A stretch of 47,760 nt of DNA from a virus. This document shows positions 112 through 21,097 of this stretch, piece by piece (the first letter of the stretch is position 1; every line of letters begins with the position of its first letter). Location of the stretch: positions 1-47,760 of the IMG/VR virus record IMGVR_UViG_3300006925_003412. One strand, given 5' to 3'. The position numbers were made by a program, and so were the translations under genes. The notes beneath the pieces were generated by a model. That model did not search any database, was not told the DNA's origin, and saw only the letters and a list, made by a program, of their open reading frames with translations.

Positions 112-2781
112 ATGAATTTAACAAAAGACTTTCTCAGATCTCTTATCATTGAAGAGATGAATAAGCAAATCAATGAAGCAACAGAAGAAGAAATTGGATA
201 TTTAGATGACGTATTGGAGATGCCAAAAGATGCTCTCCCGTTTCATGACATATTTGGAGACAGATATCGCATCTTGTCTTCTTTTAACTCTAACTCCCCA
301 GATTCTCCTTTCTCTCAATTCGAAAAGTTTTTATACAGAACTGGATGGACATTCAACCCTGATAATATGGCAGAAGTTGAAAAGTCGATTACCACCTCGT
401 ATATCGCCAATCCAGAAGATGGAGTACAACAAAGAACAAAAGTCGAAAAGATGTCAATCTCTAAATGGATGCAAGATTTAGTTGATTATGTAGATTCCGT
501 TTCAGGTACCATGTCTAACTGGAATAAAGTTATGAAGGATATGTTAGAATACGCCAACAACACTTTCAAAAAAGATAGCCCTAGGCAACCAAGAGGTGGC
601 TTTAAGTTAGAATATCTCAAAGATAAAAACTATTTAAACATGTTTCGCAAGAGATTGTCTCTTAAAAAATCTATTATGAAATTTCTCCCAGAAAAAAATA
701 AAATGCAAGTATTTTCTGGTATCGGTAGAGTAAGATGGGAAAGCGGAGAAGAGACTGTTAAAGATGTTGAGGATTATTTTAAGTTATCAAACTTGAAAAA
801 AGAAACCCTCAGACAACGTGATTGGCTAATGGGCTCAAAAGGCTCAGGAAAGAAAAACTATGTGATCTTTTCTGGAAAGAATCTAGATGAATATAGAAAA
901 GAAAACGGCAACACAGAGTATATTGTATTTTCTCGCCACCCGATTGATGTGTTTAGAATGTCCGATCATCAAGGACTAGATTCGTGCCACACTCCTCCGT
1001 CTAGCAGAGAGAAACTTGGGGCATCTCCATCTGAAGAAAAATGGGATCAATATAATATATGCGCACTATCAGAAGCCCATGCTAATGGTATGATTGCATA
1101 TGCCCTTAATCCGGATGATTTTGAAGAGCCACCTACACAAGCATTGGTAGATCAATATGAAGACAAAGAACTTTTTTCTGATGATGAAAGAGGCGTAGAA
1201 GGATTTGCACCTGTTGGTAGAATCAGAATTAAGAATGTCGCCTTCTTGGCAGACAAAGGAGATTATTCTCAAATTTTAACAAGGGTTGCTGTTCCAGAAA
1301 ATAGATCATATGGTGATATGATTTCTGGCTTCAAGGAGCACGTAGCAAAAGTCTTATCGCAGGCTCAAAAATCTAAGATTGAAGACATTGTTAACAAGTT
1401 CGAAGGAGATGTGGACTTGCGTAGATTCTTGAGAGTTGGTGGGCATTATCAAGATAATAGTATGTCTCAAATCTTACCAGAATTCTTTGGCAATACTTTG
1501 GATAGAAAAGACATTGAATACACTGAAACAGTTCAGTATTCGAATGAATTAGAGCAGTCCTTAAAAGATCAATACATGGGAACAACTATTGAAAATGCCA
1601 CAGAGACATTGCAGAGCCTGCAGGCAGAATACAATGGAGGTTTTGTAAACTTTGATAATTTAGAAGTGGAGGAAGATTGGAACGGAGATGGATTTTATAT
1701 GTCAGGTGAGGTAAGAGTTATATATAACTATGCTGATGAAATTGAATATGTTAGTGGTAAGTTTGATGTTCGAGAACTTATGAATGATGCCATCGATTAC
1801 GCTGCAGAAACTTATTTTTATGATGATGCTTGGTTTACTAACTACTCTGTATTGTTTGATACTTTTTGGGGAGGATATAAGAATGTTATGATCATATCAA
1901 TTCCTATTACTAACTTTAATGTTACTGATAATGGTGAATATTTTCCTCATGATCCTGATACGTGGATGTATGCATTATCGGAAATGAAAGATAAGTTAAC
2001 TTTTGTTATGGATCGGCATGCCGACGATTCTCTAAATAACACAGTTAAAGATTATATCTCTCATGCTAGCGCAATGTCCGATGGAGAAGAGATTGTTCGT
2101 ACCGATATTTCTGAGAGATACTATCTAACTAAATTCAAAAAAACCCTAGAAGAAGATGGCAACTGGGATATCGATGAAGAGGAGTTAGATAACGATAATC
2201 CTTTAGGATTTGATGTTCTTACTTCTTTCACGGCAGAGTTTTCTGATAGTTCTGATCTGAATCAACTGTTCAGGGAAGTCAATGAAGATTTTGATCCAGA
2301 AAACCCAGAACTAGTTGAAATGGCTAAAAGAATGTCTGGGCATATATCCACATTAATCTCTATATTGGCTTCTGAAGGCATGAATGTTATTAAGGCTGGT
2401 TTGCTAAACCAAGCCTTCTTAAGTAACCAGAGCCTATACTCAAGCCTCTCTCAGGCTACCAAATTAGATGAACTTGATATGAAAGTCGAGGCATCTATTG
2501 GATGGAGTGATGAAATTAGTCCCGACAGAATATTGCAAGGTATTGCAGAAGATGACGATCTGAATCTAAGCATCAAAATAACTTGTGAGGATTGGGATGC
2601 TGTTACCATAGAAACAGTTGGCAAAATGATGTTAGGTAGGTTTAATGATAACAATGGATGGCATATCGATGTTGATGAATGCTTGGAAGCATTAGTCAGG
2701 GCAGATATTCCTAGTCCTCCCAAACCTACAGACATTCAGGAAATGTTACGTCTCGAAATAATAAATCTTCTTCAACGTTAA
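112..2781 (+). CDS. Large acidic phage protein of unknown function, probably virion-associated
   Basis: This 889-residue protein is not assigned to a named family. It begins with an amphipathic helix (FLRSLIIEEMNKQINEA) like the N-termini of several other genes in the first 21 kb. In T4, comparable short N-terminal helices ending in a (L/I)-x-E site target internal proteins to the prohead and are then clipped; applying that here is inference. Around residues 275-300 is a motif with SRHPIDVFRMSD followed by a DSCHTPPSS Cys/His stretch. I recall the general pattern 'MS..., SC(H/M)' from large marine phage proteins of unknown function. The C-terminal half is very acidic (many DD/EE runs). No signal peptide or membrane segment is visible. 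The start is the first ATG after a weak AAGGTAAT leader. An enzymatic or ejected protein is as possible as a structural one. Confidence 0.8.
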   Translation: MNLTKDFLRSLIIEEMNKQINEATEEEIGYLDDVLEMPKDALPFHDIFGDRYRILSSFNSNSPDSPFSQFEKFLYRTGWTFNPDNMAEVEKSITTSYIANPEDGVQQRTKVEKMSISKWMQDLVDYVDSVSGTMSNWNKVMKDMLEYANNTFKKDSPRQPRGGFKLEYLKDKNYLNMFRKRLSLKKSIMKFLPEKNKMQVFSGIGRVRWESGEETVKDVEDYFKLSNLKKETLRQRDWLMGSKGSGKKNYVIFSGKNLDEYRKENGNTEYIVFSRHPIDVFRMSDHQGLDSCHTPPSSREKLGASPSEEKWDQYNICALSEAHANGMIAYALNPDDFEEPPTQALVDQYEDKELFSDDERGVEGFAPVGRIRIKNVAFLADKGDYSQILTRVAVPENRSYGDMISGFKEHVAKVLSQAQKSKIEDIVNKFEGDVDLRRFLRVGGHYQDNSMSQILPEFFGNTLDRKDIEYTETVQYSNELEQSLKDQYMGTTIENATETLQSLQAEYNGGFVNFDNLEVEEDWNGDGFYMSGEVRVIYNYADEIEYVSGKFDVRELMNDAIDYAAETYFYDDAWFTNYSVLFDTFWGGYKNVMIISIPITNFNVTDNGEYFPHDPDTWMYALSEMKDKLTFVMDRHADDSLNNTVKDYISHASAMSDGEEIVRTDISERYYLTKFKKTLEEDGNWDIDEEELDNDNPLGFDVLTSFTAEFSDSSDLNQLFREVNEDFDPENPELVEMAKRMSGHISTLISILASEGMNVIKAGLLNQAFLSNQSLYSSLSQATKLDELDMKVEASIGWSDEISPDRILQGIAEDDDLNLSIKITCEDWDAVTIETVGKMMLGRFNDNNGWHIDVDECLEALVRADIPSPPKPTDIQEMLRLEIINLLQR

Positions 2782-2784
2782 TAG

Positions 2785-2804
2785 CCCCTATATACTAATA
2801 GGGG
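2785..2804 (+). promoter_or_regulatory. Hairpin covering the ribosome binding site of the serine protease gene
   Basis: CCCCTAT (2785-2791) and ATAGGGG (2798-2804) form a perfect 7-bp stem around a 6-nt ATACTA loop. The 3' arm is part of the GGGGGG run (2801-2806), the only Shine-Dalgarno candidate for the ATG at 2814. Folding would therefore hide the binding site. No U-tract follows, so it is not a classical terminator. A translational control or RNA-processing role is inferred. Confidence 0.5.
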
Positions 2805-2813
2805 GGTATTAAA

Positions 2814-3476
2814 ATGATTAGCATTTTATTTTCAATGCTCTTGATAGCCGGAGACACTTCGAGTGCAGATGTCTTTGCTAAGAGCAGTAACTTAGTTCAT
2901 CAAGATACAGAAGATGGATTAAAAATAGCATTCGAGACTTCAGTGAGAATAGTATCTGTGTCTAGTATAGGAACTTCTTTTGGTTCAGGGAACTTGTTCA
3001 CCCATAAAGGTGAATTATATATTATTACAGCAAATCATGTAGTTGAACAGTCTTTGTTTTTGGATATTGTAGAGAAGAATGGCAACATTGTAAGCGGTAA
3101 AGTACTTTTATCAAATCCAGAACTTGACTTGGCAATAATAAAGCCTGATGTGAAACTGACAGGTACACTTGCTACTAAGTTTAAATTTTCTGAAAACAAT
3201 AAACTAGGAGAAAAAGTATTTCATTGTGGGCACCCGTTAGGTATACCATTTAATTTATCCAAGGGGATGATTACTGGATATAGTCCAACAGGATATATTA
3301 TCGATTCCATCTCTTTACCGGGCTCTTCAGGCTCTGTAGTGTTTAACGAGAATGGTAAAGTTATCGGTGTTGTCGTATCCGTTGCTGCTGTTGGAGAGCC
3401 TCCATATGCACAGTTGATCGAAGGTATCGTCAGCGTGGTTCCAATAAATCTATCGGCAATACTAGATGAGAGGTGA
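2814..3476 (+). CDS. Trypsin-like (S1/DegP-type) serine protease with signal-like N-terminus
   Basis: This 220-residue protein carries the full chymotrypsin-fold triad in order: His75 in ITANHVV (compare TAAHV), Asp105 in NPELDLAII and Ser172 in LPGSSGSVVF. The HCGHPLG stretch between Asp and Ser and the GKVIGVVVS strand after Ser also match the DegP/HtrA core. The first ~13 residues (ISILFSMLLIAG) are hydrophobic and could be a signal peptide, although the basic n-region is missing. No PDZ domain follows, so it is a minimal protease domain. A secreted or envelope-acting protease, or a virion maturation/entry protease, are both possible. It sits between large virion-type genes, and translation may be controlled by the hairpin over its binding site. 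Confidence 0.85.
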   Translation: MISILFSMLLIAGDTSSADVFAKSSNLVHQDTEDGLKIAFETSVRIVSVSSIGTSFGSGNLFTHKGELYIITANHVVEQSLFLDIVEKNGNIVSGKVLLSNPELDLAIIKPDVKLTGTLATKFKFSENNKLGEKVFHCGHPLGIPFNLSKGMITGYSPTGYIIDSISLPGSSGSVVFNENGKVIGVVVSVAAVGEPPYAQLIEGIVSVVPINLSAILDER

Positions 3477-3487
3477 CTAATTAAGAT

Positions 3488-3814
3488 ATGGGAATAAAAG
3501 ATTTAATAATATTACCAGTGGTTGGTGACTTAATTACTTTTACAAAAGTTTGGGACAAGGTTCTGTCTAGTAATGGTAGATATCCGTACGGCATCGTCAC
3601 AGATATTTTAGAATATGACTCTATGCTGGTTGTAGAGGACAATACGAATCTAGTTGGGACATTGGCTTTTCCATTGGAAGACAAACATGCATATGAAAAA
3701 AATTTCAAAGTATTTGTTGTAAGATGGGGCTCGAACACAGCCAGTTCATTTAAGTTTATTAATGAAGAATGGTTTCATAATAAAAGTTTCATTGTAGCCA
3801 CAAAAACTAGTTAG
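3488..3814 (+). CDS. Small beta-rich phage protein of unknown function
   Basis: This is a 108-residue protein with no recognised catalytic motif. Its layout is GDLITFTKVW, then YPYGIVTDI, VVEDN and VFVVRWGSN. That pattern (GDL(I/V) start, G-I-V strand, V-x-W strand) looks like a small SH3-like barrel and is shared in outline by the 6524-6760 product. A GAGGTG about 13 nt upstream of the ATG is a spaced ribosome binding site. It lies between a protease and a Nudix gene. Function is unknown; an adaptor or minor virion role is only a guess. Confidence 0.7.
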   Translation: MGIKDLIILPVVGDLITFTKVWDKVLSSNGRYPYGIVTDILEYDSMLVVEDNTNLVGTLAFPLEDKHAYEKNFKVFVVRWGSNTASSFKFINEEWFHNKSFIVATKTS

Positions 3815-3834
3815 ATATATATTAAGGAGACAAC

Positions 3835-4233
3835 ATGGCAAATTTAAAACCCGGTGATACAACCACATCTGCAAAAGCATTTTTCTTTAAAGAAGGAAGG
3901 ATATTATTAGTTAAGCCAACTGGGAGTGAAGATCGATATGACATACCCGGTGGAAAAATTAAATTCGGAGAGTCAAAAGAACAGGGAGTCTACAGAGAAT
4001 GCCTAGAAGAGATTGGATTGAAGATCAAAAAGGCTAAATTTATTGGAAAAGATAGCAATAGAGACAAGATTTATTTCTTAGTTACAGAGTGGACTGGAGA
4101 CATTGTTTTGCAGGCAGAAGAGATAGAAAAATATAGGTGGGTTAGCACATCTGAAGCCAGAGAATATTACCTAACAAAAACTGCTCATAACGGATTGATG
4201 CACTATTTACTTAATGAACTCGGAGGGGTATAA
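3835..4233 (+). CDS. Nudix hydrolase
   Basis: The 132-residue product has a perfect Nudix box: Gly40-x5-Glu46-x7-Arg54-Glu55-x-Leu57-Glu58-Glu59-x-Gly61-Leu62, the Mg2+-binding catalytic helix of enzymes that hydrolyse nucleoside diphosphates linked to another moiety. The preceding DIPGGK strand-turn is typical. Length fits a single Nudix domain. The start is set by AAGGAG 8 nt upstream of the ATG. Substrate cannot be read from sequence; oxidised nucleotides, NAD(P)/ADP-ribose, nucleotide sugars or capped RNA are all used by phage Nudix enzymes. It is followed after 1 nt by the next gene, implying coupled translation. Confidence 0.93.
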   Translation: MANLKPGDTTTSAKAFFFKEGRILLVKPTGSEDRYDIPGGKIKFGESKEQGVYRECLEEIGLKIKKAKFIGKDSNRDKIYFLVTEWTGDIVLQAEEIEKYRWVSTSEAREYYLTKTAHNGLMHYLLNELGGV

Positions 4234-4234
4234 A

Positions 4235-4555: not shown

Positions 4556-4559
4556 AAAC

Positions 4560-4568: not shown

Positions 4569-4586
4569 GCAGAGGTGTTTATACAT

Positions 4587-6316: not shown

Positions 6317-6319
6317 ACT

Positions 6320-6523
6320 ATGAAAAAATTATTTGAAAATTGGAATAAGTTCATAAAAGAGTCAGAAGTCGCTGATGCTGCTGATGAACTTGCTGATGAA
6401 CTGAGAAAAAAGTCTGAAAAAGATGCTGAAGAGCAAGAAGAAGAGGATGATCAGGAAGAAGAGCAGGAAAAGCAAATAAAATTGATGAATCTCAAATTAA
6501 ATGCTCCTACACCAGAGGGATAA
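6320..6523 (+). CDS. Small acidic protein with capsid-targeting-like N-terminus
   Basis: The protein has 67 residues. The N-terminus (MKKLFENWNKFIKES) is an amphipathic helix ending in I-K-E-S. It closely resembles the T4 internal-protein targeting peptides, which are cut by the prohead protease after (L/I)-x-E. The remainder is extremely acidic (EEQEEEDDQEEEQE), like scaffold/core proteins or T4 internal proteins. It starts 3 nt after the interrupted ORF, with AGAGG upstream, and its stop is adjacent to the next ATG. An internal head or core peptide is inferred. Confidence 0.7.
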   Translation: MKKLFENWNKFIKESEVADAADELADELRKKSEKDAEEQEEEDDQEEEQEKQIKLMNLKLNAPTPEG

Positions 6524-7118: not shown

Positions 7119-7128
7119 GGGTATCAAA

Positions 7129-8934
7129 ATGAACGACAACAATAATAAAATCATCAGAGAAGAGTTTGCAAGGGCTATAATGATCAAAAAGGCTAATTCA
7201 GTGCTAAGCGAAAGTGCATTTCGTGCCTTTATCTCTGAAATGAGAAAGTATGAAGAAAACATGATCATTGCTGAAAATATGTCATCTGAAAACATATATG
7301 ATGGATTTCAGAAGCAATTACAAGAGCAAACTGCAGAAGTTGGAAAAGAAGGGGAGATTATTTCCAATCAAATCGGAAAAGGAGAAGGAAATATAACCGC
7401 TGATGCTGAAAAAGAGCCGCCTACAGGTGGTGGTAACAAAGGGGACAAAGATCCTAAAAAGTCTGGTGGTACTAAGAAATTTCCACAAACTTTATCCAAT
7501 TCAGGACAAATAGAACTGAAGAAGTTGAATATGTCAGATCCTGTAAAAATGGCACAGTACATCATGAAAAATACAGATAGATTTGAGACTGGAGATCAAA
7601 TTGAAGCAGAACAATACATAAAATTTCAGAAAGAGAAATTAGGTGGCGGTGATGCTCCCGAAGAACCAACAGGAGATGTAAAGAAAGATACACAAAACCT
7701 AGGTAAAGAACTCGAAAGTCCAAAGGCAAAAGGGATTTTGGCTTCTATCTTCGATTCATACAAGTTTGCATTCGCTTCAAATGCCAAGATGTGGGAAAAA
7801 ATTTATGATTTTATCAATGGTTCTAGTGGTAAGACACCTGCAGAGCAAGAGAAGGCTGCTGAACAAGCAAAAAGCAATTTAGAAAATAATGTCGATTCTG
7901 ATCAGGAAGCAGGAAGAAGTGAGGAAGATCCAGAAGGTGGAGAAGAAGGTGGTGATGAAACTGTTAACGTCAGAAAAGGGAAAAACAGCCTTCAGTCTAG
8001 ACTGTCTAAGTTGTTTCCTGATTTGGCAAAGGCTAGAGGAACTTACTATTATCGCAAAACAGATAAGCAAGGTGATCAAGGAAAAATCGTTTCTAAGAAC
8101 ACTAGTGCATTGGCTGCTATCCTTGGGGACATTGAGGCTCAGTTGAAAGGCTCAGGTATTGAAATTTCAGAATCTTTAAGAAGTCAATTGGTAGATACTG
8201 TTGGAACTATTATGTTGTCTGAATCTGGTGGAGTATTGTTAGAAAAAAGAAGTGATCTAGCAAAATTCAAAACAAATCTTCAAGTTGCTCTTCAGAAAGT
8301 TACTAAAAAGCATGAAGATCCAAAGAAAAAGAGAAAAGCAATACAAAAGTTCTTATTTAGACTCAAGAACTATGCCGAAAAGGGCGACTTTGGTACATTA
8401 GCCTCTAGATACGAAGATATCACCGCTGTTAAGAAAATGAATAGTCTATATGATGGGATGAAGCCTGAAGAGAAAGAAAGTTCAAAAGACTATGCACTCG
8501 CTTATTCCAAGAAGCAATTCACTGCTGCTGGAGAAGGAAGGTTCAAATCTTCTACCTTAGATGACGCTAAGAAAGATTCCCCAACTAAGTCCAAAGAACA
8601 GATGATAAAAATGATTCCAAAAATCAAAAATGGTGTACTCAACATCAGTCAGATTATCGGCCCTAAACTCAAAGCCGCTGGGTATGATCTAAAGTCTCCT
8701 GAGGGACAAAAGGTTCAACAAAGACTTTTAAAAGTTCTAAGAAGGTTCTTGAAGAAAGATCTAGAAAGACTAGGGCTGTCAAGCAAAGTTAAACTTTTGG
8801 CTATGTTTTCAAAATCTAAGCCCAAAAAAGGTAAAGGTAAAGTAAACGAGTCTGCTAGTGTCTTAGAGGAGTCATATCTAGATTTTTTCTCTAATTACAT
8901 GTTAGAAGGTATCATTAATGAATTGTCAAATTAA
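7129..8934 (+). CDS. Large charged protein of unknown function, probable virion or core protein
   Basis: The 601-residue product has no recognised domain. The N-terminus (IIREEFARAIMIKKANSVLSES) is an amphipathic helix with an L-S-E-S site, and near residue 580 is VLEESYLDFF. The middle is disordered in appearance, with Gly/Asp/Glu-rich stretches (PTGGGNKGDKDPKKSGG around residue 105, NNVDSDQEAGRSEEDPEGGEEGG around 255). The C-terminal half is Lys-rich and helical. GAGGG 9 nt before the ATG supports the start. The alternation of charged linkers and helical blocks resembles scaffold/core or ejected proteins. The 3' end overlaps the metalloprotease gene by 17 nt. Confidence 0.75.
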   Translation: MNDNNNKIIREEFARAIMIKKANSVLSESAFRAFISEMRKYEENMIIAENMSSENIYDGFQKQLQEQTAEVGKEGEIISNQIGKGEGNITADAEKEPPTGGGNKGDKDPKKSGGTKKFPQTLSNSGQIELKKLNMSDPVKMAQYIMKNTDRFETGDQIEAEQYIKFQKEKLGGGDAPEEPTGDVKKDTQNLGKELESPKAKGILASIFDSYKFAFASNAKMWEKIYDFINGSSGKTPAEQEKAAEQAKSNLENNVDSDQEAGRSEEDPEGGEEGGDETVNVRKGKNSLQSRLSKLFPDLAKARGTYYYRKTDKQGDQGKIVSKNTSALAAILGDIEAQLKGSGIEISESLRSQLVDTVGTIMLSESGGVLLEKRSDLAKFKTNLQVALQKVTKKHEDPKKKRKAIQKFLFRLKNYAEKGDFGTLASRYEDITAVKKMNSLYDGMKPEEKESSKDYALAYSKKQFTAAGEGRFKSSTLDDAKKDSPTKSKEQMIKMIPKIKNGVLNISQIIGPKLKAAGYDLKSPEGQKVQQRLLKVLRRFLKKDLERLGLSSKVKLLAMFSKSKPKKGKGKVNESASVLEESYLDFFSNYMLEGIINELSN

Positions 8935-9816: not shown

Positions 9817-10449
9817 ATGAAAATCAGAAAATCTAGATTAAAAATATTAATCAAAGAAGAATATGAAATGTATCTTCTGGAAGAAAGGATATTTCAAGAT
9901 GCAATTAATGAAGGCATTGCTAGGGATGCTCTTGTCTTTCTTAAAGATAAATTTGTTGATGGTGTCGAAAAACTTGGAGATATCGGTGGAGGAAATTTGG
10001 CTGTACAGAAAGCAATGAAAGACTTTATCTTTGCATATTCTAGCATGATGTCGTTCAATGTTAAAAATCAAGACAAGTTCTTTCATTGTGTGGCTAACAA
10101 TATGGCAACTCAAAGAGGTTGGAGTGGAAAGGCGTTTGCAATAGTTTTCAGTGAACTAAGAGAGATAACTGACTTAATTAAGCCTACTGGACTTACTTGG
10201 AAAGAAAAATTTGATGATCGTAGAGATGACTTAGAAGCAAACGCACTGGGTAGAGATTCAGTTGGTGATGCTTCTAATGTATCTGGTGAATATCCAGATA
10301 ACTTCTCCGAAGAATATAAAAAAGCAATTGATGCGTGTAAATCTACTTTACCTGCTTGTGCTGAATTTGGATATGAAGATGAAAAAGGAAAGTCAGTCGC
10401 TAAATATGATGGTGATTTTACTGCATGTGGGGGATATATCAGAAAATGA
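9817..10449 (+). CDS. Phage protein with FHC-xAN-x-A-x-RG type domain, function unknown
   Basis: The 210-residue product begins MKIRKSRLKILIKEE, the basic/hydrophobic N-terminal helix shared with the 20501 gene. A domain follows with FFHCVANNMATQRGWSGKAF, FSELREITD and, further on, EANALGRD. This 'HC.AN...G...A...lrE..D...AN..GR' pattern recurs in phage and bacterial proteins whose role I do not know. Two Cys in the tail (CKSTLPAC) and one near the end could form disulfides. It overlaps the hydrolase gene by 4 nt. A virion-packaged protein is inferred from its N-terminus. Confidence 0.75.
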   Translation: MKIRKSRLKILIKEEYEMYLLEERIFQDAINEGIARDALVFLKDKFVDGVEKLGDIGGGNLAVQKAMKDFIFAYSSMMSFNVKNQDKFFHCVANNMATQRGWSGKAFAIVFSELREITDLIKPTGLTWKEKFDDRRDDLEANALGRDSVGDASNVSGEYPDNFSEEYKKAIDACKSTLPACAEFGYEDEKGKSVAKYDGDFTACGGYIRK

Positions 10450-11252
10450 AAATGAAATTAATAATGGAAAACTTTAGAAAATTTAACGAACAGATGGAAT
10501 GGGCAGGGTTTCATGGCAAAGGCGGACGCCCTAATCAACATTCTGTCTCAGGCAGAGGTGGTGGAATGTATCAATTAGGATGCCTAGAAGACGTTATCGA
10601 TTCAGATTCCGGAGAAGGTACTTTAGAAGAACCTGAGCCGGACGGAATTTATGACACTTGGGAAAAGCCCGGAGATGCTGGTTGTCCACAATTTGATAGT
10701 GGAGAGTTGGTTACAGATAGAGATGTTGAAATTGCCGTTAAATTTTTAAACGACAGAAAGCCTGTGCATTTAGTTGCTTACTCCAGAGGAGGAGGCGTTG
10801 CTTTTCTTGCTCATGCCGCTAGCGGTTTACAGTATCGCCCAAAGGTACATTATGTCGCCCCTGCTTGGAAGAAATCTGCTGGGAGCACTTCTGCTGGTAT
10901 TCATGATTCTGGAGGTTTTATTATTCACGGCACCAAAGATATTAGAATTCCTTTGAAAGATTCAGTTGAACTTTCAATAATGACAGGCTTACCGTTGGCA
11001 GTCTTTCCCGGATTTGGACACTTAATGGATATCCTAAATGTTGCCGAAAAGCCAAATATGGCTGAAACAGTTGTATCATCTTCGAAGTTAAAAAGTTTAC
11101 CACAAGAAGTAATCGATCAATTACCAACTTGGGAAGGTAAAGTGGAATTTTGGGCTGAACGCCCAGCAGACGGAAACCCCGGTAGAAAGTCCGATCAGGT
11201 TTTGTCAATAGAAGGTGCGCAACAAAAATGGTATGAAACGTATTTAAAATAA
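10446..11252 (+). CDS. Alpha/beta hydrolase
   Basis: An in-frame ATG exists at 10425, but the ATG at 10446 overlaps the upstream stop (ATGA), is preceded by GGGGG, and gives the common phage N-terminus MKLIMENFRKF; this start gives 268 residues. The hydrolase core is clear. HLVAYSRGGGVA is the nucleophile elbow with Ser113 (Ala replaces the usual first Gly of GxSxG). IIHGTKDIRIP supplies Asp165, and FPGFGHLMD supplies His192. The order Ser-Asp-His and the spacing fit. The N-terminal ~90 residues are Gly-rich and may form a lid or targeting region. Substrate is unknown: lipid, ester or peptide bonds are possible. Confidence 0.82.
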   Translation: MKMKLIMENFRKFNEQMEWAGFHGKGGRPNQHSVSGRGGGMYQLGCLEDVIDSDSGEGTLEEPEPDGIYDTWEKPGDAGCPQFDSGELVTDRDVEIAVKFLNDRKPVHLVAYSRGGGVAFLAHAASGLQYRPKVHYVAPAWKKSAGSTSAGIHDSGGFIIHGTKDIRIPLKDSVELSIMTGLPLAVFPGFGHLMDILNVAEKPNMAETVVSSSKLKSLPQEVIDQLPTWEGKVEFWAERPADGNPGRKSDQVLSIEGAQQKWYETYLK

Positions 11253-11265: not shown

Positions 11266-13932
11266 GTGACTAAAAGATTATTGCAAGAAGGCCCGGTTGG
11301 GCATATGTGGCATCCATTTGATCTGGATTCAGTTAAGAATGGAAAAGATCTGTTATCAGTATTCGAGAACGAAGTGATAGAATATATTAATAAATTCACA
11401 CCGTCTATCAAGATAGATGGGATTAATGGGCCGATTCGATTAGTCACTAATAAGTCCGGAGACAGAGAGTTTGCTATTGACAGGATGTCTAGGGCTAATA
11501 TTGATCGTGAAGGAGTCACAGCAGATCGTTTAAAAGAGAGGTTTGAGAAGGCTATATTGCAATCTCTAGATTCTGATGAAGTTATGCAAATCCCTCTACA
11601 CAAATTAGTTGCTATGGGCGTCTCAATGGACAAGTTAACTGTTGGGACTAATTTAACAATCATCCACAAAAAGAAAAAGAAGCCCGTTGTCGTAAAGGGG
11701 ATTACCTCTGGACATGGTTTTGTAAATGATGGTACAGTTGCTTTAACTGTATTGAATAATGCACTTAGTGCTCAACCAACACAAATGGAACAAGTTCTAA
11801 GAGTGTTGGACATGTGGAATAACCCTGCAATATGTTTAAATAATGATATTGTGCATGAAAGTTCGAAAGATTCGGGGCAAGTAAATGCTGTAAAATATGA
11901 TGAAGATTTTATTGCGTTTCATGGACTCAATGAGATATTCAGCCCAGAAGGCAAGACTACTAGAAAAACTAAAGAAATAAATTTGAATGATCAGCAAAAG
12001 CAGGCATTAAATCAATTGGTTAAGATAATCAATGATACAAATACCGTACAAGGCTTTAGAGCGCTCTCTCCGTACGATACAGTCGCTTTAAAAGGTGAGA
12101 TAGACATTGACTATAGTAAAGTTCTAGCAGAGGTTATAGAGGTAAAATTGGACTCACAAACGTCTACTTCACAATCACTATCATCTTGGTTATCTGATTC
12201 TAAGATTGTAAAGCCTTCGTATAGTGTTAAGTATACATTTTCAGATGGAAAATCTAGATCTTGCTTCAGCAAGGCAAATTATGTTGCTTTAATTCCAGAT
12301 CAAGGAGAGCAGCAATACTCAATCAGAGAACTTCTGAGTGAAGAGGCACACCCTGAATTAGATGATGAGATTTATTACAACTTTGCATCTGGTGCAATAT
12401 TCTACCATGCAACTAGACTATTAGGAAGAGCAGTTCTTCAAACTTTAGTCAATAAGTCTAAAGTAGGAAATGATGCTCTCACTAGTCACGAAGGAGTTGT
12501 GATGCGCTCGAATGATGTATTTGGGGTTAATAATCCCATCAAGATCACAGGTGACTTCATCAGAGATGGAATGGGAAGTAATTTAGCACAGGCTATGACT
12601 AAAAAGCCTGCTGCAGTGAATGAGTCTACAGAACTTCAAGATACTCCAGAAGGTGAAATCGGAGATGAAGAAGGAGAGCAGACAATTGTAACTACCACGG
12701 GAACTAAAACTGTTGCTGTAATGCCGGGCTCTTTCAAGCCTCCCCACAAAGGACATCTTCTTATGGCGGAACATCTGTCTAAAGTTGCAGATGATGTCTT
12801 AATTTTTGTATCTGCTCCACGCGGTTCAAAAAGATTGCTACCATTTTCAGGTACTGAAATCACATATGATAAAGCCATAGAACTGTGGAGACTCATGCTC
12901 AGAGGCGCTTCTGGTAATATTAGATTAATAGAGACAACAAATCCTAGTCCCTCTCCTATCATGGCTCTAGCAGAAATAATGAAACCTGCTGATGAAAGAC
13001 AAAGTTATCAAGATGTTGATTTTTATCCCGAAGAATATTCTAAATATTATTTAGCAATGTCTGAAAAAGAAAAAGATGATCCGGGCTCAATGAAAAGATT
13101 TTCATTTTATGAAGATATGGAAAATGTAGAAATAACTTTAGTACCTGCTTTTAAACATGATCCTGAGTACTCTCAAGCAATTGCTGAGTTAATGACTAAG
13201 TCTGCTGATATTATTGAAAGAATTTCTGATGATATAAAAGCAAAGGCTTCAGAACTTGCTAAAGGACTTGTGTCCTCAAGAAAAAGAAAAAAATTATCTG
13301 CCAATGCTTCTGTAGAAGAATACATCTCTGCATTGTCCAAGGCTAATCAGAAAAAAGTTGCTAAGTTTATGAAATCAACACCAAAAGATTTAGATAAACA
13401 AAATTTTAGTGCAACCGATCTTAGACTTCTTTTGGATTTGAAAAAAGTTTATAACCTCCCAGTAGATTCACTTCTCGTAGACTTCGTAGGGCAAAACCTT
13501 GAAGACTATCTTCGCATCGTATTTGGTTCCGGAGAAGTGAATGAATCGATTAACGTAATTCAAGAAATGATTACATCGATCCTTGCGGAACAATTAGATG
13601 AAATGTCCACTATGGCTAGTGGGGCAGTAGCAGGTGGATCTAGCCCACTAGACGGTAACCGTGACGAAGAGGAAGAGGATGTGAACGAAGTCACATTCCA
13701 CCCTTCCGAACTTCCGCAGCAGCCCGGCTTGTCTTCTATGACTGTCAGAGTAATACCAAGTAGTAGACATAAGTCTAATAGTGGTAGCGATGCAATTGCA
13801 AAGAAAAGCATCAAAAACAAATTTAAAATTGATAGTACATATACCGACAAACGAGCCCCCTATTATAGTGAGGACGATATCATAACCGATTTGGTTGAGA
13901 AAGTCCTACACAATATTATACGTTTGAACTAA
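11266..13932 (+). CDS. Two-domain protein: ligase-like nucleotidyltransferase fused to a cytidylyltransferase
   Basis: A GTG start at 11266 is supported by AAAGGAG 7 nt upstream; 888 residues. The N-terminal part contains K49-I-D-G52, which looks like the KxDG adenylation motif of ATP-dependent ligases, followed by a strand-rich region (REFAIDRMSRANIDREGV). The second domain starts near residue 480: VAVMPGSFKPPHKGH holds H494-K-G-H497, the HxGH signature of cytidylyl/NMN adenylyltransferases, with the typical ADDVLIFVSAP strand next. The two are joined by an acidic linker with V451-N-E-S454, a possible prohead-protease site. A second V-N-E-S and a V-N-E-V occur in the C-terminal 140 residues. 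RNA or NAD repair and nucleotide-linked modification are possible roles; the ligase-like call is the less certain one. Confidence 0.8.
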   Translation: MTKRLLQEGPVGHMWHPFDLDSVKNGKDLLSVFENEVIEYINKFTPSIKIDGINGPIRLVTNKSGDREFAIDRMSRANIDREGVTADRLKERFEKAILQSLDSDEVMQIPLHKLVAMGVSMDKLTVGTNLTIIHKKKKKPVVVKGITSGHGFVNDGTVALTVLNNALSAQPTQMEQVLRVLDMWNNPAICLNNDIVHESSKDSGQVNAVKYDEDFIAFHGLNEIFSPEGKTTRKTKEINLNDQQKQALNQLVKIINDTNTVQGFRALSPYDTVALKGEIDIDYSKVLAEVIEVKLDSQTSTSQSLSSWLSDSKIVKPSYSVKYTFSDGKSRSCFSKANYVALIPDQGEQQYSIRELLSEEAHPELDDEIYYNFASGAIFYHATRLLGRAVLQTLVNKSKVGNDALTSHEGVVMRSNDVFGVNNPIKITGDFIRDGMGSNLAQAMTKKPAAVNESTELQDTPEGEIGDEEGEQTIVTTTGTKTVAVMPGSFKPPHKGHLLMAEHLSKVADDVLIFVSAPRGSKRLLPFSGTEITYDKAIELWRLMLRGASGNIRLIETTNPSPSPIMALAEIMKPADERQSYQDVDFYPEEYSKYYLAMSEKEKDDPGSMKRFSFYEDMENVEITLVPAFKHDPEYSQAIAELMTKSADIIERISDDIKAKASELAKGLVSSRKRKKLSANASVEEYISALSKANQKKVAKFMKSTPKDLDKQNFSATDLRLLLDLKKVYNLPVDSLLVDFVGQNLEDYLRIVFGSGEVNESINVIQEMITSILAEQLDEMSTMASGAVAGGSSPLDGNRDEEEEDVNEVTFHPSELPQQPGLSSMTVRVIPSSRHKSNSGSDAIAKKSIKNKFKIDSTYTDKRAPYYSEDDIITDLVEKVLHNIIRLN

Positions 13933-13963: not shown

Positions 13964-14851
13964 ATGAAAAGAGAAGATTTATTTGACAGTATCGAAAAGC
14001 AGATACTCGCTGAGAAGGTTTACCGTTCTCAAATCAAAAAGAGATTAGGCGAATTTAAAATTCTCCAAGAGTCGAAAAAGAAGAAGCAGGTGATTATCGA
14101 AAAGATATACAGAAAACACTTGAGAAACCAATTGCAATCTTTCATGGTGCTCTCAGAAGCGAAGAAGCAGGCATTTATCCACAAGACTACCGGTATGAAT
14201 GCACTAGAAGATCTTTTCTCTAATACCAACTTGTTAAGCGTTCTAGAGGGTGACTACAAGATTTTGACGACGTCGTATGAACAAAGGAAAGATTATAGAG
14301 AAAGAGTCATGGAACTAGTTCTGGATATCTTCGAGCAAGAAAGTATCGGAAAAGACGAGGATACCAAGAGTATCAATGAAGCAGTTAGCAGACTTTACGA
14401 AGAAGAAGAGCCAGACATCCAAATCACTGTCGATGATGATGATATTCCGGAAGATAAAGTAGTTGGGCCGAAACGGGATGAAATGGAAAAAGAGAAAGAA
14501 CAGGCTCGTGAAGATTCTGAAAATGCCAAGTCTATTGAAGGGAAAGAAGATGCTACTGGTGTACGACGTGCAGAATTAGCCTTTAAGAAGATCGAGAATA
14601 GCATTAGAAGCGCTTATGAGACACTAGGAAACCCTGCTGACAAAACAGAGTTCAAAAGGTTCTTGATCGCTAACCTGACTATGTATTTCAAGCAATTTGA
14701 AGATGGACTTTCAAATGAACCTCAAGCAGATATTCCTCAAGATGCTCAACAAGCAATTGAAGATGCTGAGGAGAAATTAGGTTCAACAGATGATGTCTCT
14801 GCTGATACTGAAGAAGAGATGGAAGTTGACTTAGGGGATTTGGAACTCTGA
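13964..14851 (+). CDS. Conserved phage virion/prohead-type protein
   Basis: The start is the ATG at 13964, 9 nt after GGAG (an in-frame TTG at 13949 is less likely); 295 residues. The first 70 residues contain two similar helical units: a basic helix ending ILQES, then one ending VLSEA. Next comes a conserved-looking domain (TTGMNALEDLFSNTNLLSVLEGDYKILTT). After an acidic stretch, a second helical block follows (FKKIENSIRSAYETLGN, then FLIANLTMYFKQFEDGL), which I recall from proteins near portal/protease genes in marine phages. The C-terminus is strongly acidic. Two hydrophobic-x-E-S/A sites at the domain boundary suggest proteolytic maturation. No enzyme motif is visible. Confidence 0.8.
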   Translation: MKREDLFDSIEKQILAEKVYRSQIKKRLGEFKILQESKKKKQVIIEKIYRKHLRNQLQSFMVLSEAKKQAFIHKTTGMNALEDLFSNTNLLSVLEGDYKILTTSYEQRKDYRERVMELVLDIFEQESIGKDEDTKSINEAVSRLYEEEEPDIQITVDDDDIPEDKVVGPKRDEMEKEKEQAREDSENAKSIEGKEDATGVRRAELAFKKIENSIRSAYETLGNPADKTEFKRFLIANLTMYFKQFEDGLSNEPQADIPQDAQQAIEDAEEKLGSTDDVSADTEEEMEVDLGDLEL

Positions 14852-15469: not shown

Positions 15470-15490
15470 TAACCCTAACTAAAAATATTT

Positions 15491-15518: not shown

Positions 15519-15550
15519 GAAAGAGTAAATCAAAACAACGGGGGTTAAAA

Positions 15551-16646: not shown

Positions 16647-16667
16647 AATCATCTACTCAAACGTATA
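16640..16667 (+). promoter_or_regulatory. Promoter-like element 2 (upstream of the lipoprotein pair)
   Basis: TGAATAA (16640-16646), 10 nt, TCAAACGTATA (16657-16667) followed by ATAATA, giving a perfect TATAAT -10 box at 16664-16669. The first lipoprotein ATG is at 16689, with AAAGGAG between. Confidence 0.72.
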
Positions 16668-16688
16668 ATAATATAGAAAGGAGAAACA

Positions 16689-16916: not shown

Positions 16917-17097
16917 TAGTTTAATGTTTATGCTCTTTGCTTGTGGAGAGAAAGAAGAAGATACAAGCGTAGAAGAGGAAGTGGCTGAGGAAACAGCCGC
17001 AGAAGAAGTAGAAGAGGAAGATACCGCCTCCGAAGGCTCTGAAGGAGAGAATGGAGAGACTGAGGAAGAACCTGAAGATACTTCACAAGAAGAATAA
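16909..17097 (+). CDS. Second small, very acidic lipoprotein
   Basis: Translation most likely starts at ATG 16909, because AAGGAG lies 6 nt upstream (an in-frame ATG at 16876 lacks one). The 62-residue product opens MISSLMFMLFACGEKEE, with lipobox L-F-A-C. The rest is almost entirely Glu, Asp, Ser, Thr and Ala (EEEVAEETAAEEVEEED). It overlaps the first lipoprotein and ends just before a strong terminator. The pair looks like a two-gene early unit for an envelope function. Confidence 0.7.
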   Translation: MISSLMFMLFACGEKEEDTSVEEEVAEETAAEEVEEEDTASEGSEGENGETEEEPEDTSQEE

Positions 17098-17112
17098 TAA
17101 CCCCCCTGAGTT

Positions 17113-17147
17113 TGGCAGTTCTCTTTAAAAAACTGCCATTTTTTTTT
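17113..17147 (+). terminator. Rho-independent terminator after the lipoprotein genes
   Basis: TGGCAGTT (17113-17120) and AACTGCCA (17131-17138) form an 8-bp stem with a 10-nt loop, followed immediately by nine T residues. This ends the unit starting at promoter-like element 2. Confidence 0.92.
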
Positions 17148-17161
17148 ATCTGGAGATTGAA

Positions 17162-17494
17162 ATGATAACTGTAATTGGCGCAAATGAAAAAAGATTTTTT
17201 CTTAAAGATGGATCTCAAGCGATAGTTCTTGAGCCTAGAGTATATCATGATTCTGCAATATTAGGATACAGCCTTGAAGACGACAGGTTTATGTACTCTA
17301 AGCAACAATTTCTAGAACAGTTAACAGAACAAGGTATGACTTACGAAGAAGCAATCGAGTACTATCATTATAACACGATAGGTACTTACGCTAAAAACTA
17401 TCCAGTTTTCTTGGACACAGAAGACGAACTAATTGAAACTTTTGATGACTACGAAGTACAATATAACCCTTCGGAATGGATAAAAGGTGAGTGA
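17162..17494 (+). CDS. Conserved small phage protein of unknown function
   Basis: The 110-residue product has the pattern AILGYS...RFMYSKQQFLEQL, GMTYEEAIEYYHYNTIGTY, then PVFL. I recall this sequence pattern (an 'A-I-I-G-Y... E-E-A.E...N..G.Y' protein) as very common in phage genomes without known function. GGAG 8 nt before the ATG supports the start. It lies just after a terminator yet ahead of the phosphomannomutase gene, so it either has its own promoter or is read through. Confidence 0.8.
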   Translation: MITVIGANEKRFFLKDGSQAIVLEPRVYHDSAILGYSLEDDRFMYSKQQFLEQLTEQGMTYEEAIEYYHYNTIGTYAKNYPVFLDTEDELIETFDDYEVQYNPSEWIKGE

Positions 17495-17495
17495 T

Positions 17496-18299
17496 ATGAA
17501 AGAAATAATCTTGTTCGACATGGATGGTACGCTGACTCCTGCTAGACAGAAAATGGATATCAACATGGAGATGCGTCTTCATGAAGCGCAGCGAAAAGGA
17601 TTTGATATAGGAATCATTACAGGTTCAGATATGAATTATGTCCGTCATCAATGTTCTAGATTATTTGATTTAAGCCTCGTAGATTCCTCTAGGATTCATT
17701 TTCTACCTTGCAATGGTACAAAGTACCTCTTGAACGATAAAATGGTTTACGAGCGAAATATGAGGGAATATATGGGTGAAACACTTTGGAACAGATTGAT
17801 GATCTTGTTAATAGAATTACAAAAAGATTTAGTCTTAGAGCACGATATACCCCTTACAGGGCATTTTTTTGATTACAGGGGTAGTACACTCAATTGGTGC
17901 CCTATAGGTAGAAATGCTGAAGAGAAAGATAGGAGCAAATGGGAAAGAATGGATTTTGATTATAAAATCAGAAAACCGTTTTTGAAACAACTCAAGACAT
18001 TGGTACACACACAGTGTTCTAATTTAGGAGATCTTTCGTCATCTGATGTTGAATTGAGTGTAAAATATGGTGGAGATACTTCATTTGATATATTTCCATT
18101 AGGATGGGACAAGACTTATCCATTAGAAAATACAGACATATTCCATGATTATAGTAAGATATACTTCGTAGGAGATCGTTGTGAACAAGACGGAAACGAT
18201 TATGAGATATATGAGCACTCAAAGATAACTGGATTTAAAACAACTTCTCCAGATGAAACTATAAAAATTATGAATAAAATCCTATACTCAAACGTATAA
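17496..18299 (+). CDS. Phosphomannomutase, eukaryotic PMM type (HAD superfamily)
   Basis: The product interconverts mannose-6-phosphate and mannose-1-phosphate. The 267-residue protein follows the eukaryotic PMM pattern: catalytic DMDGTLTPARQ near residue 8, IITGSDMNY, LPCNGTKY, the substrate-binding STLNWCPIGRNA (compare LNVSPIGR), KYGGDTSFDIFPLGWDKTY and VGDRCEQDGNDYEIYE. This is a different family from bacterial ManB-type PMMs. ATG 17496 is preferred over the GTG at 17487 because AAAAGGTGAG lies just before it. It supplies the first step for the GDP-mannose genes 10 kb downstream. Its last codons (YSNV-stop) double as promoter-like element 3. Confidence 0.93.
   Translation: MKEIILFDMDGTLTPARQKMDINMEMRLHEAQRKGFDIGIITGSDMNYVRHQCSRLFDLSLVDSSRIHFLPCNGTKYLLNDKMVYERNMREYMGETLWNRLMILLIELQKDLVLEHDIPLTGHFFDYRGSTLNWCPIGRNAEEKDRSKWERMDFDYKIRKPFLKQLKTLVHTQCSNLGDLSSSDVELSVKYGGDTSFDIFPLGWDKTYPLENTDIFHDYSKIYFVGDRCEQDGNDYEIYEHSKITGFKTTSPDETIKIMNKILYSNV
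18271..18298 (+). promoter_or_regulatory. Promoter-like element 3 (upstream of tRNA-Arg)
   Basis: TGAATAA (18271-18277), 10 nt, TCAAACGTATA (18288-18298), then ATAA. The TATAAT box at 18295-18300 puts the expected start of transcription about 7 nt later, at or next to the tRNA 5' end (18309). The element is entirely within the end of the phosphomannomutase gene. Confidence 0.72.
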
Positions 18300-18308
18300 T
18301 AAGTACGA

Positions 18309-18384
18309 GCACTTGTAGCACAATGGATAGTGCAACTGCCTTCTAAGCAGTAGGTTGCTAGTTCGAGTCTAGCCAAGTGTACCA
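18309..18384 (+). tRNA. tRNA-Arg (UCU), CCA encoded
   Basis: A complete 76-nt cloverleaf can be drawn. The acceptor stem is GCACTTG/CAAGTGT (one G-U pair). The D-arm is GCAC/GTGC, and the anticodon stem is ACTGC/GCAGT around the loop CTTCTAA. The T-arm is GCTAG/CTAGC with TTCGAGT. Discriminator A and an encoded CCA end the gene. Anticodon UCU reads AGA, a codon used very often in these phage genes, so the tRNA probably supplements the host supply. A promoter-like element sits directly upstream. Confidence 0.96.
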
Positions 18385-18397
18385 TAAAGAGGATAAT

Positions 18398-18922
18398 ATG
18401 GAAGAAAAAACAGTAGATGAGATGATAGAGGCTTTTATAAAGAATGGCTTGAATATGGAATATTTCAAATTCATCAATGATTATGATAAAGAGAATTTTT
18501 TTATTATGTATGGAGATTTGTTCGAATCAATGATGAAAGAAGATGAGGAATATTACATAGAATATACCGAAGAAAAAGACGTAAGAGTTACATTGCATGA
18601 TGAAGAAGTATTCTTGTATTTTACTGATGGCTATGATACCCTGAAGTGTGAACTTGAAAGAGGATATTACGATAGAGATAACACCAATCAGGTATTGATT
18701 TTGACTATTCTGTTCTTAACCGTCAAGGAGTTGAAAGCAATGATTGATTTATTTGCTGGTGAGATGCTAGAGAATATCAAAAAAAGCAGTAAAAACGGAA
18801 AGTTGACAAGACTCCCAGATTCTTTTGTAGGTAAAGCAAATTATCTTTCCTCAAAGCAAGAATCTATTATGGATAATATTGAGAAAGCAAGAAAAAAAGT
18901 TATAATCAAGGAGATGAAATGA
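18398..18922 (+). CDS. Acidic protein of unknown function
   Basis: The ATG at 18398 has AAAGAGG upstream; a longer in-frame GTG start would lie inside the tRNA and is rejected. The 174-residue product is acidic, with the pattern VRVTLHDEEVFLYFTDGYDTLKCEL suggesting a beta sheet, then a helical C-terminal half (IKKSSKNGKLTRLPDSF and ESIMDNIEKARKKVI). No family is recognised. It is co-transcribed with the tRNA and overlaps the cytidylyltransferase gene by 4 nt. Confidence 0.75.
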   Translation: MEEKTVDEMIEAFIKNGLNMEYFKFINDYDKENFFIMYGDLFESMMKEDEEYYIEYTEEKDVRVTLHDEEVFLYFTDGYDTLKCELERGYYDRDNTNQVLILTILFLTVKELKAMIDLFAGEMLENIKKSSKNGKLTRLPDSFVGKANYLSSKQESIMDNIEKARKKVIIKEMK

Positions 18923-19362
18923 TGAAGTCTAGAAGACTTAATTTGCCAACAGTAATGGTATCTGGAGGCTTTGATCCTATTCACGGAGGACATGTACAAA
19001 TGATTCGTGATGCAGCACAGCGAGGTAATGTGATAGTCGTAGCAAATTCAGATGAATGGCTTATGAGAAAGAAAGGATATGTATTTATGTCTTTTGAAGA
19101 ACGTGCGAAGATCCTTAAAGAGATTAAAGGTGTGATTTTGGTTGCAGCGGTAGATGATTCAGACGATACTGTATGTAATGCAATCCGAATGATTCGCCCT
19201 GATTACTTTGCTAATGGCGGAGATAGGGGCAAATCCAATACTCCAGAGCAAGATGTTTGTGAAGAACTAGGAATTAACATGTTATGGGGAATAGGAGGAG
19301 ACTATAAATTCAATTCATCGTCAGATTTGGCTAAAAATTTGATAAAAAACTACCCAATATAG
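18919..19362 (+). CDS. Cytidylyltransferase-like nucleotidyltransferase (HxGH family)
   Basis: The 147-residue product has the fold and motifs of glycerol-3-phosphate cytidylyltransferase and of the nucleotidyltransferase half of HldE/RfaE: VSGGFDPIHGGH with H22-G-G-H25, IVVANSDEWLMRKKG, SFEERAKIL, RPDYFANGGDRG, and a final SSSDL (compare SSS/STT). Such enzymes join NTP to a phosphorylated alcohol or sugar with release of pyrophosphate. The starting ATGATG overlaps the previous stop. A strong terminator follows. It may take part in activating a sugar or polyol for the glycan pathway; the exact substrate is unknown. Confidence 0.87.
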   Translation: MMKSRRLNLPTVMVSGGFDPIHGGHVQMIRDAAQRGNVIVVANSDEWLMRKKGYVFMSFEERAKILKEIKGVILVAAVDDSDDTVCNAIRMIRPDYFANGGDRGKSNTPEQDVCEELGINMLWGIGGDYKFNSSSDLAKNLIKNYPI

Positions 19363-19424
19363 TCTTTTGGCATACCGGAGATGTAGTTACTATTGTGTAA
19401 ACGTCATTCCCCCCCTCCCTTTTT

Positions 19425-19456
19425 AAAGAGAAGATCAATTGATCTTCTCTTTTTTT
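19425..19456 (+). terminator. Rho-independent terminator after the cytidylyltransferase gene
   Basis: AAAGAGAAGATC (19425-19436), loop AATT, GATCTTCTCTTT (19441-19452) is a perfect 12-bp inverted repeat ending in a T-tract that continues to 19456. It closes the tRNA-18398-18919 unit. Confidence 0.93.
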
Positions 19457-19467
19457 GTTTGTAGTGT

Positions 19468-19476
19468 ACTATTTAT
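19468..19476 (+). promoter_or_regulatory. Candidate late promoter element ACTATTTAT
   Basis: ACTATTTAT lies between the terminator and the ATG at 19497, 20 nt upstream of that ATG. After a strong terminator the next gene needs a promoter, and this is the element shared with the 4560 and 43891 leaders. Confidence 0.35.
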
Positions 19477-19496
19477 TAACAAAATGAGGGTTACCT

Positions 19497-20504
19497 ATGA
19501 ATAATAAATGGAGACGGTTCTTCATCGATGAAGAGCCTAAATACGAATATGAACCGAATCTATCGCTTATATCTGAAGATGACTTTGAAGATATTGAAGA
19601 CTATTCTCAGATTTTAAACGAGGCTGAAGAACTCCTCGACGAGAAAAAGAAGAAAAAAAAGAAAAAGAAGAAGGGTAAGAAGGATGCTTGCTATCACAAG
19701 GTACGTTCTCGATATGATGTGTGGCCGAGTGCATATGCTTCCGGTGCTCTTGTTAAGTGCCGAAAGGTTGGCGCAAAGAACTGGGGTAATAAGTCTAAAA
19801 AGACTAATGAAGAGTTAGAACTAGATGAGGAAACCTTAGAGGAGATAGTCTCAGAATCCACACAAATGAGTAGGCAACAGTTAGAACAACACTATCAGCA
19901 GCATCAAGACTTTATCTTTACTGCTATAGATCAGTTGGAGAGACTAAAAAGAAAGTATAACGGATCAACCACTAGGGTGAACTGGACAAAGAGATACCCC
20001 AGCCGTCAGATGGCTGCTTCAAATCCGTCAGAAATTGATCCACAGTACGCCGCATCGGTAGAGATGTTGTATCCAGACTCTCATGATGATTTTGTTGAAT
20101 TTAACAATTTTTTAGATGAATTTGCTTCTATGATGAGAGGCGCAGGATACCACGCAAGTTTGGTGTACGATATGCCCATTGATGGCTTGATCAGTTCATT
20201 GAAGAAGAAAGTTAATAAATTTTTGATGGAAAAAAAGCGTAAACTAACCTCAAAGCCATCTTCTGAAAAATCTCTTAGAGACTGGTTTGGTAGAAGAGGA
20301 GCAAAAGGAAAGAAGAAAGGATGGGTTGATTGTAATGCACCAGATGGTTCAGGTGGATATAAGTCTTGTGGAAAGAGTTCTGGTGAGAAGCGAAAAAGAT
20401 ATCCTGCATGTCGTCCAACTCCCGGTGCTTGCAAGAAAATGAAAGGCTCTAAAGGTAAATCTTGGGGCAAAAAAGATGCTAAACGCAAAGGAAAAAAGAA
20501 ATGA
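19497..20504 (+). CDS. Lys/Cys-rich two-module protein, probable virion protein
   Basis: The 335-residue product has two conserved-looking Cys modules. After an acidic N-terminus with ILNEAEE and a run of about 11 Lys, the first module is DACYHKVRSRYDVWPSAYAS followed by GALVKCRKVGAKNWG (about residues 63-98). The second is SLRDWFGRRGAKGKKKGWVD then CNAPDGSGGYKSCGKSSGE and YPACRPTPGACKKM (about 260-320), ending in a basic tail. I recall both modules from phage and giant-virus proteins (DUF5872-like, from memory). A zinc or DNA-binding role inside the virion is plausible. Between them, residues 120-240 are helical and unlike anything I recognise. GAGGG precedes the ATG. Confidence 0.8.
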   Translation: MNNKWRRFFIDEEPKYEYEPNLSLISEDDFEDIEDYSQILNEAEELLDEKKKKKKKKKKGKKDACYHKVRSRYDVWPSAYASGALVKCRKVGAKNWGNKSKKTNEELELDEETLEEIVSESTQMSRQQLEQHYQQHQDFIFTAIDQLERLKRKYNGSTTRVNWTKRYPSRQMAASNPSEIDPQYAASVEMLYPDSHDDFVEFNNFLDEFASMMRGAGYHASLVYDMPIDGLISSLKKKVNKFLMEKKRKLTSKPSSEKSLRDWFGRRGAKGKKKGWVDCNAPDGSGGYKSCGKSSGEKRKRYPACRPTPGACKKMKGSKGKSWGKKDAKRKGKKK

Positions 20505-21097
20505 AAATCACTAAACAAAGATTAAAAGCAATCATTTTGGAGGAGACTAAAATTGCTCTCTTATCAGAAGGATTGAAGCACCACATTGATTCCAGAACAC
20601 CTCTTACGGATAATATTTATCGTGTAGGATCTGACTCTTATTTTGAAGTGATATCTGAAGCCAGAAAGGCTTATAATGAAGGAATTTATACCCCTCTCAA
20701 TGAGGAAGAAAAAGAACTTCTAGAGTCTGATCTAGGAGAGTGGGTTGAATTTAAAGGTGAAAGAGTTCCCCTTGATTTTCCTATGTATATGGAGACAATT
20801 GAGGAAGCAAAGAAGAAAAAGAAGAAGAAAGATCCACCAATTGGAAAGCCGATGAAGGGCTCCGGTGGTAAGAAATATCAAGTCTATGTTCGCAGCAAGA
20901 AGACTGGAAGAATCAAAAAGATTTCTTATGGTGATTCAAAAGGTGGACTTAAAGGCAACTGGAACAACGCTGAGGCTCGTTCATCATTCGCTTCGCGTCA
21001 TAACTGCGCTGAGAAAAAAGATCGCACTAAAGCCGGATACTGGGCTTGTAGAGCACATAAAGATTTCGGGACAAATGTTCCCGGAAGGTTCTGGTAA
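20501..21097 (+). CDS. Probable virion protein with Lys-rich linker and conserved C-terminal domain
   Basis: This 198-residue protein overlaps the upstream gene by 4 nt. It begins MKITKQRLKAIILEETKIALLSEG, almost the same pattern as the 9817 product, with an L-S-E-G site. A second possible site is VISEARK near residue 50. After a run of seven Lys comes a C-terminal domain: KKYQVYVRSKKTGRIKKISYGD, then ARSSFASRHNC, YWACR and a final VPGRFW. I recall this 'FaaRH.C...YW.Cr' domain in many marine phages. It resembles a small zinc-less basic DNA- or capsid-binding fold, but function is unknown. Confidence 0.8.
   Translation: MKITKQRLKAIILEETKIALLSEGLKHHIDSRTPLTDNIYRVGSDSYFEVISEARKAYNEGIYTPLNEEEKELLESDLGEWVEFKGERVPLDFPMYMETIEEAKKKKKKKDPPIGKPMKGSGGKKYQVYVRSKKTGRIKKISYGDSKGGLKGNWNNAEARSSFASRHNCAEKKDRTKAGYWACRAHKDFGTNVPGRFW

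Follow-up and report, generated by a model that had tools for sequence, protein, structure and literature searches.

In phage T4, association of the internal proteins and of Alt with the core is mediated by a capsid targeting sequence (CTS), which is removed by gp21 (PMC5694885, PMC9958956, PMC7411985), and in phage P1 the 30 N-terminal residues of DarB are enough for packaging (PMC9024508). In the virus fragment analysed here, IMGVR_UViG_3300006925_003412 (47,760 bases, the whole of which is called the window below), and in its relatives, proteins were found to carry short N-terminal leaders that, judging from their distribution and their conserved ends, are probably capsid-core targeting tags removed by a prohead protease, that is, modular addresses for prohead loading. 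According to the mechanism proposed here, the leader, a short N-terminal amphipathic peptide, would be a modular address tag by which its protein docks into the scaffold core while the prohead assembles; cleavage after hydrophobic-x-E at the leader end would be the work of a T4-type S77 prohead protease (the gp21 homologue), and the mature protein would stay in the head and probably be ejected with the DNA. By sequence, the leaders occupy the N-termini of unrelated proteins, related proteins can differ in the leader they bear, each leader closes with a protease-type site, and one interchangeable class copies the C-terminal tail of the scaffold; that the leaders dock and are cleaved, and that their proteins are packaged and injected, is what we infer.

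The window is part of the genome of a T4-like phage that has Flavobacterium phage immuto among its relatives. Its right end carries T4-type baseplate genes (gp25- and gp6-like) and its left part a row of mostly unknown genes; a sugar-gene block, PhoH and a late sigma-like gene are also present. The gp6-like protein (44309) could be aligned to immuto and Microcystis phage Mel-JY01 over 98–99% of its length, and the baseplate wedge genes of the window, together with portal, protease and capsid genes in relatives, place the phage among the Immutovirus-like T4-type myoviruses. The same region is covered in the IMG/VR relatives G001, G002, G003, G004, G008, G009 and G010, of which G001 is ~100% identical to the window and adds ~27 kb beyond its left end, and G010 is a 180-kb relative. 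An S77 prohead protease, a gp22-like scaffold and a gp23-like capsid protein are encoded by immuto, Mel-JY01 and G010; within the 47.8-kb window itself, neither an S77 prohead protease nor a scaffold gene was found. Two further window genes were assigned: a eukaryotic-type phosphomannomutase at 17487-18299 (PF03332, E=5e-39), consistent with the sugar genes of the phage, and a trypsin-like serine protease at 2814-3476 (PF13365, E=7e-20), the hydrophobic N-terminus of which resembles a signal peptide.

Three leader classes were considered in detail: class A, with the consensus MKITKSQLKQIIKEEL...(V/L)LxE and a length of ~15–30 residues, class B, with the consensus MKLLFENWRKYLNE and ~14 residues, and class D, with the consensus MKKQILSEEFRRMQKLAGIITE. 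Because circularity had to be avoided, the HMMs for classes A and B were built from IMG/VR pattern matches in other phages only. In the window and its relatives, HMM A found 26 of 1155 N-termini at E<1e-3 and 2 of 5759 internal segments, and HMM B found 15 of 1155 and none of 5759, respectively. A sequence-only reading of the window had named seven proteins with such N-termini, and the gene starts and N-termini agree with its description. With the HMMs, three to five window proteins appear to have an A or B leader, all encoded on the plus strand, and the putative leader ends are LSE/G, INE/G, INE/A and IKE/S (the slash marks the leader end here and below). The best supported are a class A leader, MKITKQRLKAIILEETKIALLSE, at 20501..20569 of the protein 20501-21097 (E=1e-7, putative cut before G), retained with LLSEG in G002 and G004; a class A leader, MKIRKSRLKILIKEEYEMYLLEERIFQDAINE, at 9817..9912 of the protein 9817-10449 (E=1e-6, putative cut before G); and a class B leader, MKKLFENWNKFIKE, at 6320..6361 of a 67-residue acidic protein, 6320-6523 (E=5e-6, putative cut before S). 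Two others of the seven matched class A more weakly: the 889-residue protein 112-2781, with the putative leader MNLTKDFLRSLIIEEMNKQINE at 112..177 (E=0.05, putative cut before A), in which leader and INEA are identical in G002, and the 601-residue protein 7129-8934, with a class A-like N-terminus at 7129..7212 (E=0.04) and LSES at residue 28, retained as LSES/LGES in G002 and G004. The remaining two of the seven did not hold up in this test: the B-like N-terminus MKMKLIMENFRKFNE at 10446..10490 (plus strand, protein 10446-11252) gave a non-significant E=7 with HMM B, G009 having the similar MKMKLIMEGWRGFLTEA, and the protein at 13964 belongs to neither class A nor class B. In the sugar genes, where the sequence-only reading had foreseen that the pattern would tell against it, and in the other right-hand enzymes, there is no leader (next class A match, E=5.6).

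Among the other proteins of the left part, the protein 19497-20504 (plus strand) has a degenerate B-like N-terminus, MNNKWRRFFIDE, at 19497..19532 that can be assigned by orthology only (HMM B, E=31), its orthologues having full B leaders in G008 and G010 and an A leader in G009. The protein 11266..13932 (plus strand) starts with MTKRLLQEG and is without a class A or B leader, the LLQEG/LLMEG/LLTEG start being retained in close relatives; the cytidylyltransferase domain ascribed to it was confirmed (PF01467). Directly left of the window, three further leader-like genes stand in tandem in G001 (24442-26044, loci L036-L037), with the N-termini MKMKLIMESFNSYVIEE, MKITTSYISQLVKEEM (HMM A, E=9e-4) and MKRYSSDKKMQKLFEGFRKTVLSES. 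The protein 9817-10449 contains a serum amyloid A domain (PF00277, E=5e-14; PDB mouse SAA3, E=9e-6), which is otherwise known from animals, and this leader protein was found only in the window phage and two near-identical contigs.

In an AT-rich genome, K/E-rich N-termini and common LxE sites might coincide by chance, and there would then be no shared leader at all. The failure of 10446 and 13964 to reach HMM significance agrees with this, and so does an enrichment of internal sites that is small and selection-biased (see below). For the leaders, however, chance is refuted and in our estimate extremely improbable: N-terminal matches far outnumber internal ones, the class A pattern gave at least 120 matches in IMG/VR against 4 for a mirror-image pattern of equal base content, and class B is highly specific. 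Class B was searched with a degenerate DNA pattern for FENWR.(Y/F)(L/I)xE in which no start codon was included; it was found in at least 120 IMG/VR stretches, and among the matches listed, 147 of 160 B motifs had an in-frame ATG exactly four codons upstream. In 257 Gb of cellular genomes, the same pattern gave 8 matches, one of them N-terminal in a recognisable leader, so that the leader is essentially absent there. In the cultured-phage collection, short-query searches, within their sensitivity, detected neither A nor B leaders apart from one weak match to an uncultured huge phage, and class D was present in immuto phages only.

A few related patterns were noticed in these searches. The class A motif stands at the very C-terminus in 8 of 2839 C-termini (for example, L226, G003 64385 and L087 2258), which is above the internal rate, and some of these motifs have an xE site before them, as if the tag fits either end; the small number led us to reject class A as a common C-terminal tag. 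In immuto (L012-L014), a fourth class, C, MENFDLKKFLVENKLTxNSKLLxE, occurs on unrelated proteins (genes at record positions 1803, 103806, 117631, 118632 and 125241), with a related form directly after the prohead protease gene. In the G006 contig (loci L039-L042), the N-terminus MKFQDLTTLLEQDESIFKPR is repeated on several proteins (genes at 21315, 21935, 23713, 24309 and 34100) and may represent either a further leader class or a family of paralogues.

Most of the sites scattered inside the proteins, in contrast to the leaders, may be there by chance. The sequence-only reading had pointed to many internal [LIV]xE[ASG] sites as evidence of wider processing. The ten proteins that it named have 25 such sites against 13.5 ± 3.7 in shuffles (p=0.004), an enrichment that is selection-biased, since these proteins had been picked for having sites; the right-hand genes have 34 against 25.9 (p=0.07). 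The enrichment is mild, and the claim of wider processing is weak: given the selection bias and mixed conservation in orthologues, the internal sites were rejected as processing sites. Of the sites said to lie at domain borders, E453 of 11266 (VNES) is retained in the close relatives G002, G003 and G004 and missing from G008 and G009, and the sites before the TTGMNAL block of 13964 are mostly not retained.

The leaders themselves end at a protease-type site. In 165 B leaders sampled without using the site, [LIVMF]xE was found at the leader end in 122, against 2.4% expected, and the information content, 2.05 bits at E, is down to 0.48 bits one position later and to 0.18 bits after two; in the residue after E, A and S are enriched and K and L depleted. 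In class A, [LIVM]xE occurs at residues 17–30 in 70% of leaders and further in at 17–20%, and the residue after the conserved I-x-E (residue 14) is often E, not A/S/G. A similar site ends the conserved capsid propeptides of leader-bearing genomes (n=17), mostly LL[RK]E/[AS], and in the large genomes this end lies near the T4 gp23 cut position. The S77 protease itself was found in 17 of 20 large leader-bearing contigs and in 5 of 13 random large contigs, with 4 positives among the 6 longer than 120 kb; since random large contigs often carry it too, this association alone proves little, and the presence of S77 was rejected as proof of the leader role for its lack of specificity. An RNR-based scan yielded immuto-like relatives and was unusable as a control. 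In G010, the leader genes are distant from the head genes, which counts against head targeting, as do the E that often follows I-x-E in class A and the lack of a protease or scaffold gene in the window.

The leaders are modular. The 498 leader-bearing proteins fell into 311 body clusters (BLAST, E 1e-4), and in seven families of bodies more than one leader class is found. For example, bodies that are 83% identical follow a B leader in L111 and an A leader in L259, and homologous bodies (E=5e-39) follow a B leader in L098 and a D leader in L541. Among 75 representative bodies, Pfam detected NUDIX, protein kinase, poly(A) polymerase, DnaJ, TseH-like, HD, AAA_33, amidase and NT5C domains, and no domain in most of them. 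In G010 (14032-14415, locus L018), the body of a class B leader protein resembles by eye a SET-domain methyltransferase (KIHGKGIFAGEKI). Head-targeted proteins could also act in assembly, as parts of the core or scaffold in the manner of T4 gp67 and gp68, and not as injected effectors. Such a role would fit the many leader proteins that are small and acidic or have no known domain (e.g. 6320), as well as the degradation of T4 core proteins by gp21, but the huge variety of bodies, with kinase, NUDIX, DnaJ, poly(A) polymerase and amidase among them, is unlike a conserved assembly function, and we consider this reading unlikely. That an enzyme payload is packed and injected, as had been suggested for the window phage, is plausible. 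Pfam gave no support for a "metalloprotease" at 8918, where only a HELIHH motif was seen by eye, or for a "hydrolase" at 10446.

What such a leader may bind is suggested by class D. The scaffold proteins of these phages have a C-terminal R(W/M)xxLAGIK, and a profile of this tail trained without immuto placed the immuto scaffold third, behind only two training members. Next in the ranking came two N-termini of other immuto proteins, MKKQILSEQFRRMQKLAGIITE/S and MKKQILSEQFKRMQFLAGIITE/S, whose scores of 23.0 and 22.3 stand far above the next score, 14.0. In IMG/VR, 83 of 131 class D matches were N-terminal and 35 C-terminal, the latter mostly on scaffold-like proteins ending ...ESNEAFARMQKLAGII. 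Class D cargo, in immuto and in freshwater relatives, thus seems to begin with a scaffold-tail copy, after which comes a protease-type site. Classes A and B were rejected as scaffold-tail copies after profile scans of 17 head regions. Since D and B stand on homologous bodies, B, and through the A–B swaps also A, would be expected to serve the same purpose.

The dissimilarity of A and B to the scaffold tail could also mean that leaders dock to another phage assembly (membrane, replication compartment or tail), the terminal hydrophobic-x-E belonging to the docking helix and being no cleavage site; by sequence the leaders are indeed amphipathic helices, and some class A motifs are internal or C-terminal. 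Against this stand the scaffold-tail identity of class D, which is interchangeable with B, and the conservation that ends at x-E with A and S enriched next, as at a protease site, and we regard docking elsewhere as quite improbable. Tags on unrelated proteins, a T4-type protease site and one class like the scaffold tail are together the reason why the leaders probably load proteins into the head. The capsid-targeting reading first made for the window is therefore well supported by modular leaders with conservation ending at hydrophobic-x-E, and further by the similar site in the capsid propeptides of relatives and the apparent scaffold-tail mimicry of an interchangeable class; the leaders are also more widespread than that reading had supposed. 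We lean towards the wider view that, in uncultured T4-like phages, a toolkit of interchangeable N-terminal leaders brings unrelated proteins by the hundred, enzymes in many cases, into the prohead, and that in at least one class the scaffold tail has been copied and grafted onto cargo, which poses as scaffold until the prohead protease frees it.

If this is true, a simple sequence tag would identify the proteins that travel in the heads of uncultured phages and are probably injected, and hundreds of hypothetical proteins would become candidate effectors of host takeover or anti-defence. The copy of the scaffold tail would also give a concrete idea of what a capsid targeting sequence binds. Since, in the cultured-phage collection, class D is present only in immuto phages and the short-query searches gave no A or B leader beyond the one weak match, immuto is the obvious test system. 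The literature search returned no mention of the leader motifs and no immuto virion proteomics.

Compared with the described systems, the leaders are supported as functional analogues of the T4 CTS. Like it, they are short N-terminal peptides (10–20 residues in T4) on non-homologous proteins and end at a gp21-type hydrophobic-x-E (MKTYQEFIAE/A in T4 IPII and IPIII), and relatives have an S77 protease and a similar site type in the capsid propeptide. No sequence homology was detected, however, HMMs A and B missing T4 IPI, IPII, IPIII and Alt (E about 70); here several leader classes occur per phage clade, on far more and more diverse proteins, and class D copies a scaffold tail that T4 gp22 does not have. 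In the giant phages SPN3US and phiKZ, N-terminal propeptides of head proteins are likewise cut by the prohead protease, and two paralogues share an identical N-terminus, but those propeptides are mostly >100 residues long with an AXE/SXE motif, whereas the leaders have 14–30 residues and [LI]xE. In P1, an N-terminal signal of 10–30 residues of DarB is similarly enough to load a reporter into the head, yet the Dar proteins are without a common consensus, and the leaders form a recognisable repeated motif. The logic of class D has a parallel in P22, with its scaffold that has an essential C-terminal helix-turn-helix and its nanocages, for which fusion of cargo to scaffold is an engineered route of loading; those fusions are man-made, whereas the class D tail copy is natural, stands at the N-terminus of the cargo and is followed by a protease-type site.
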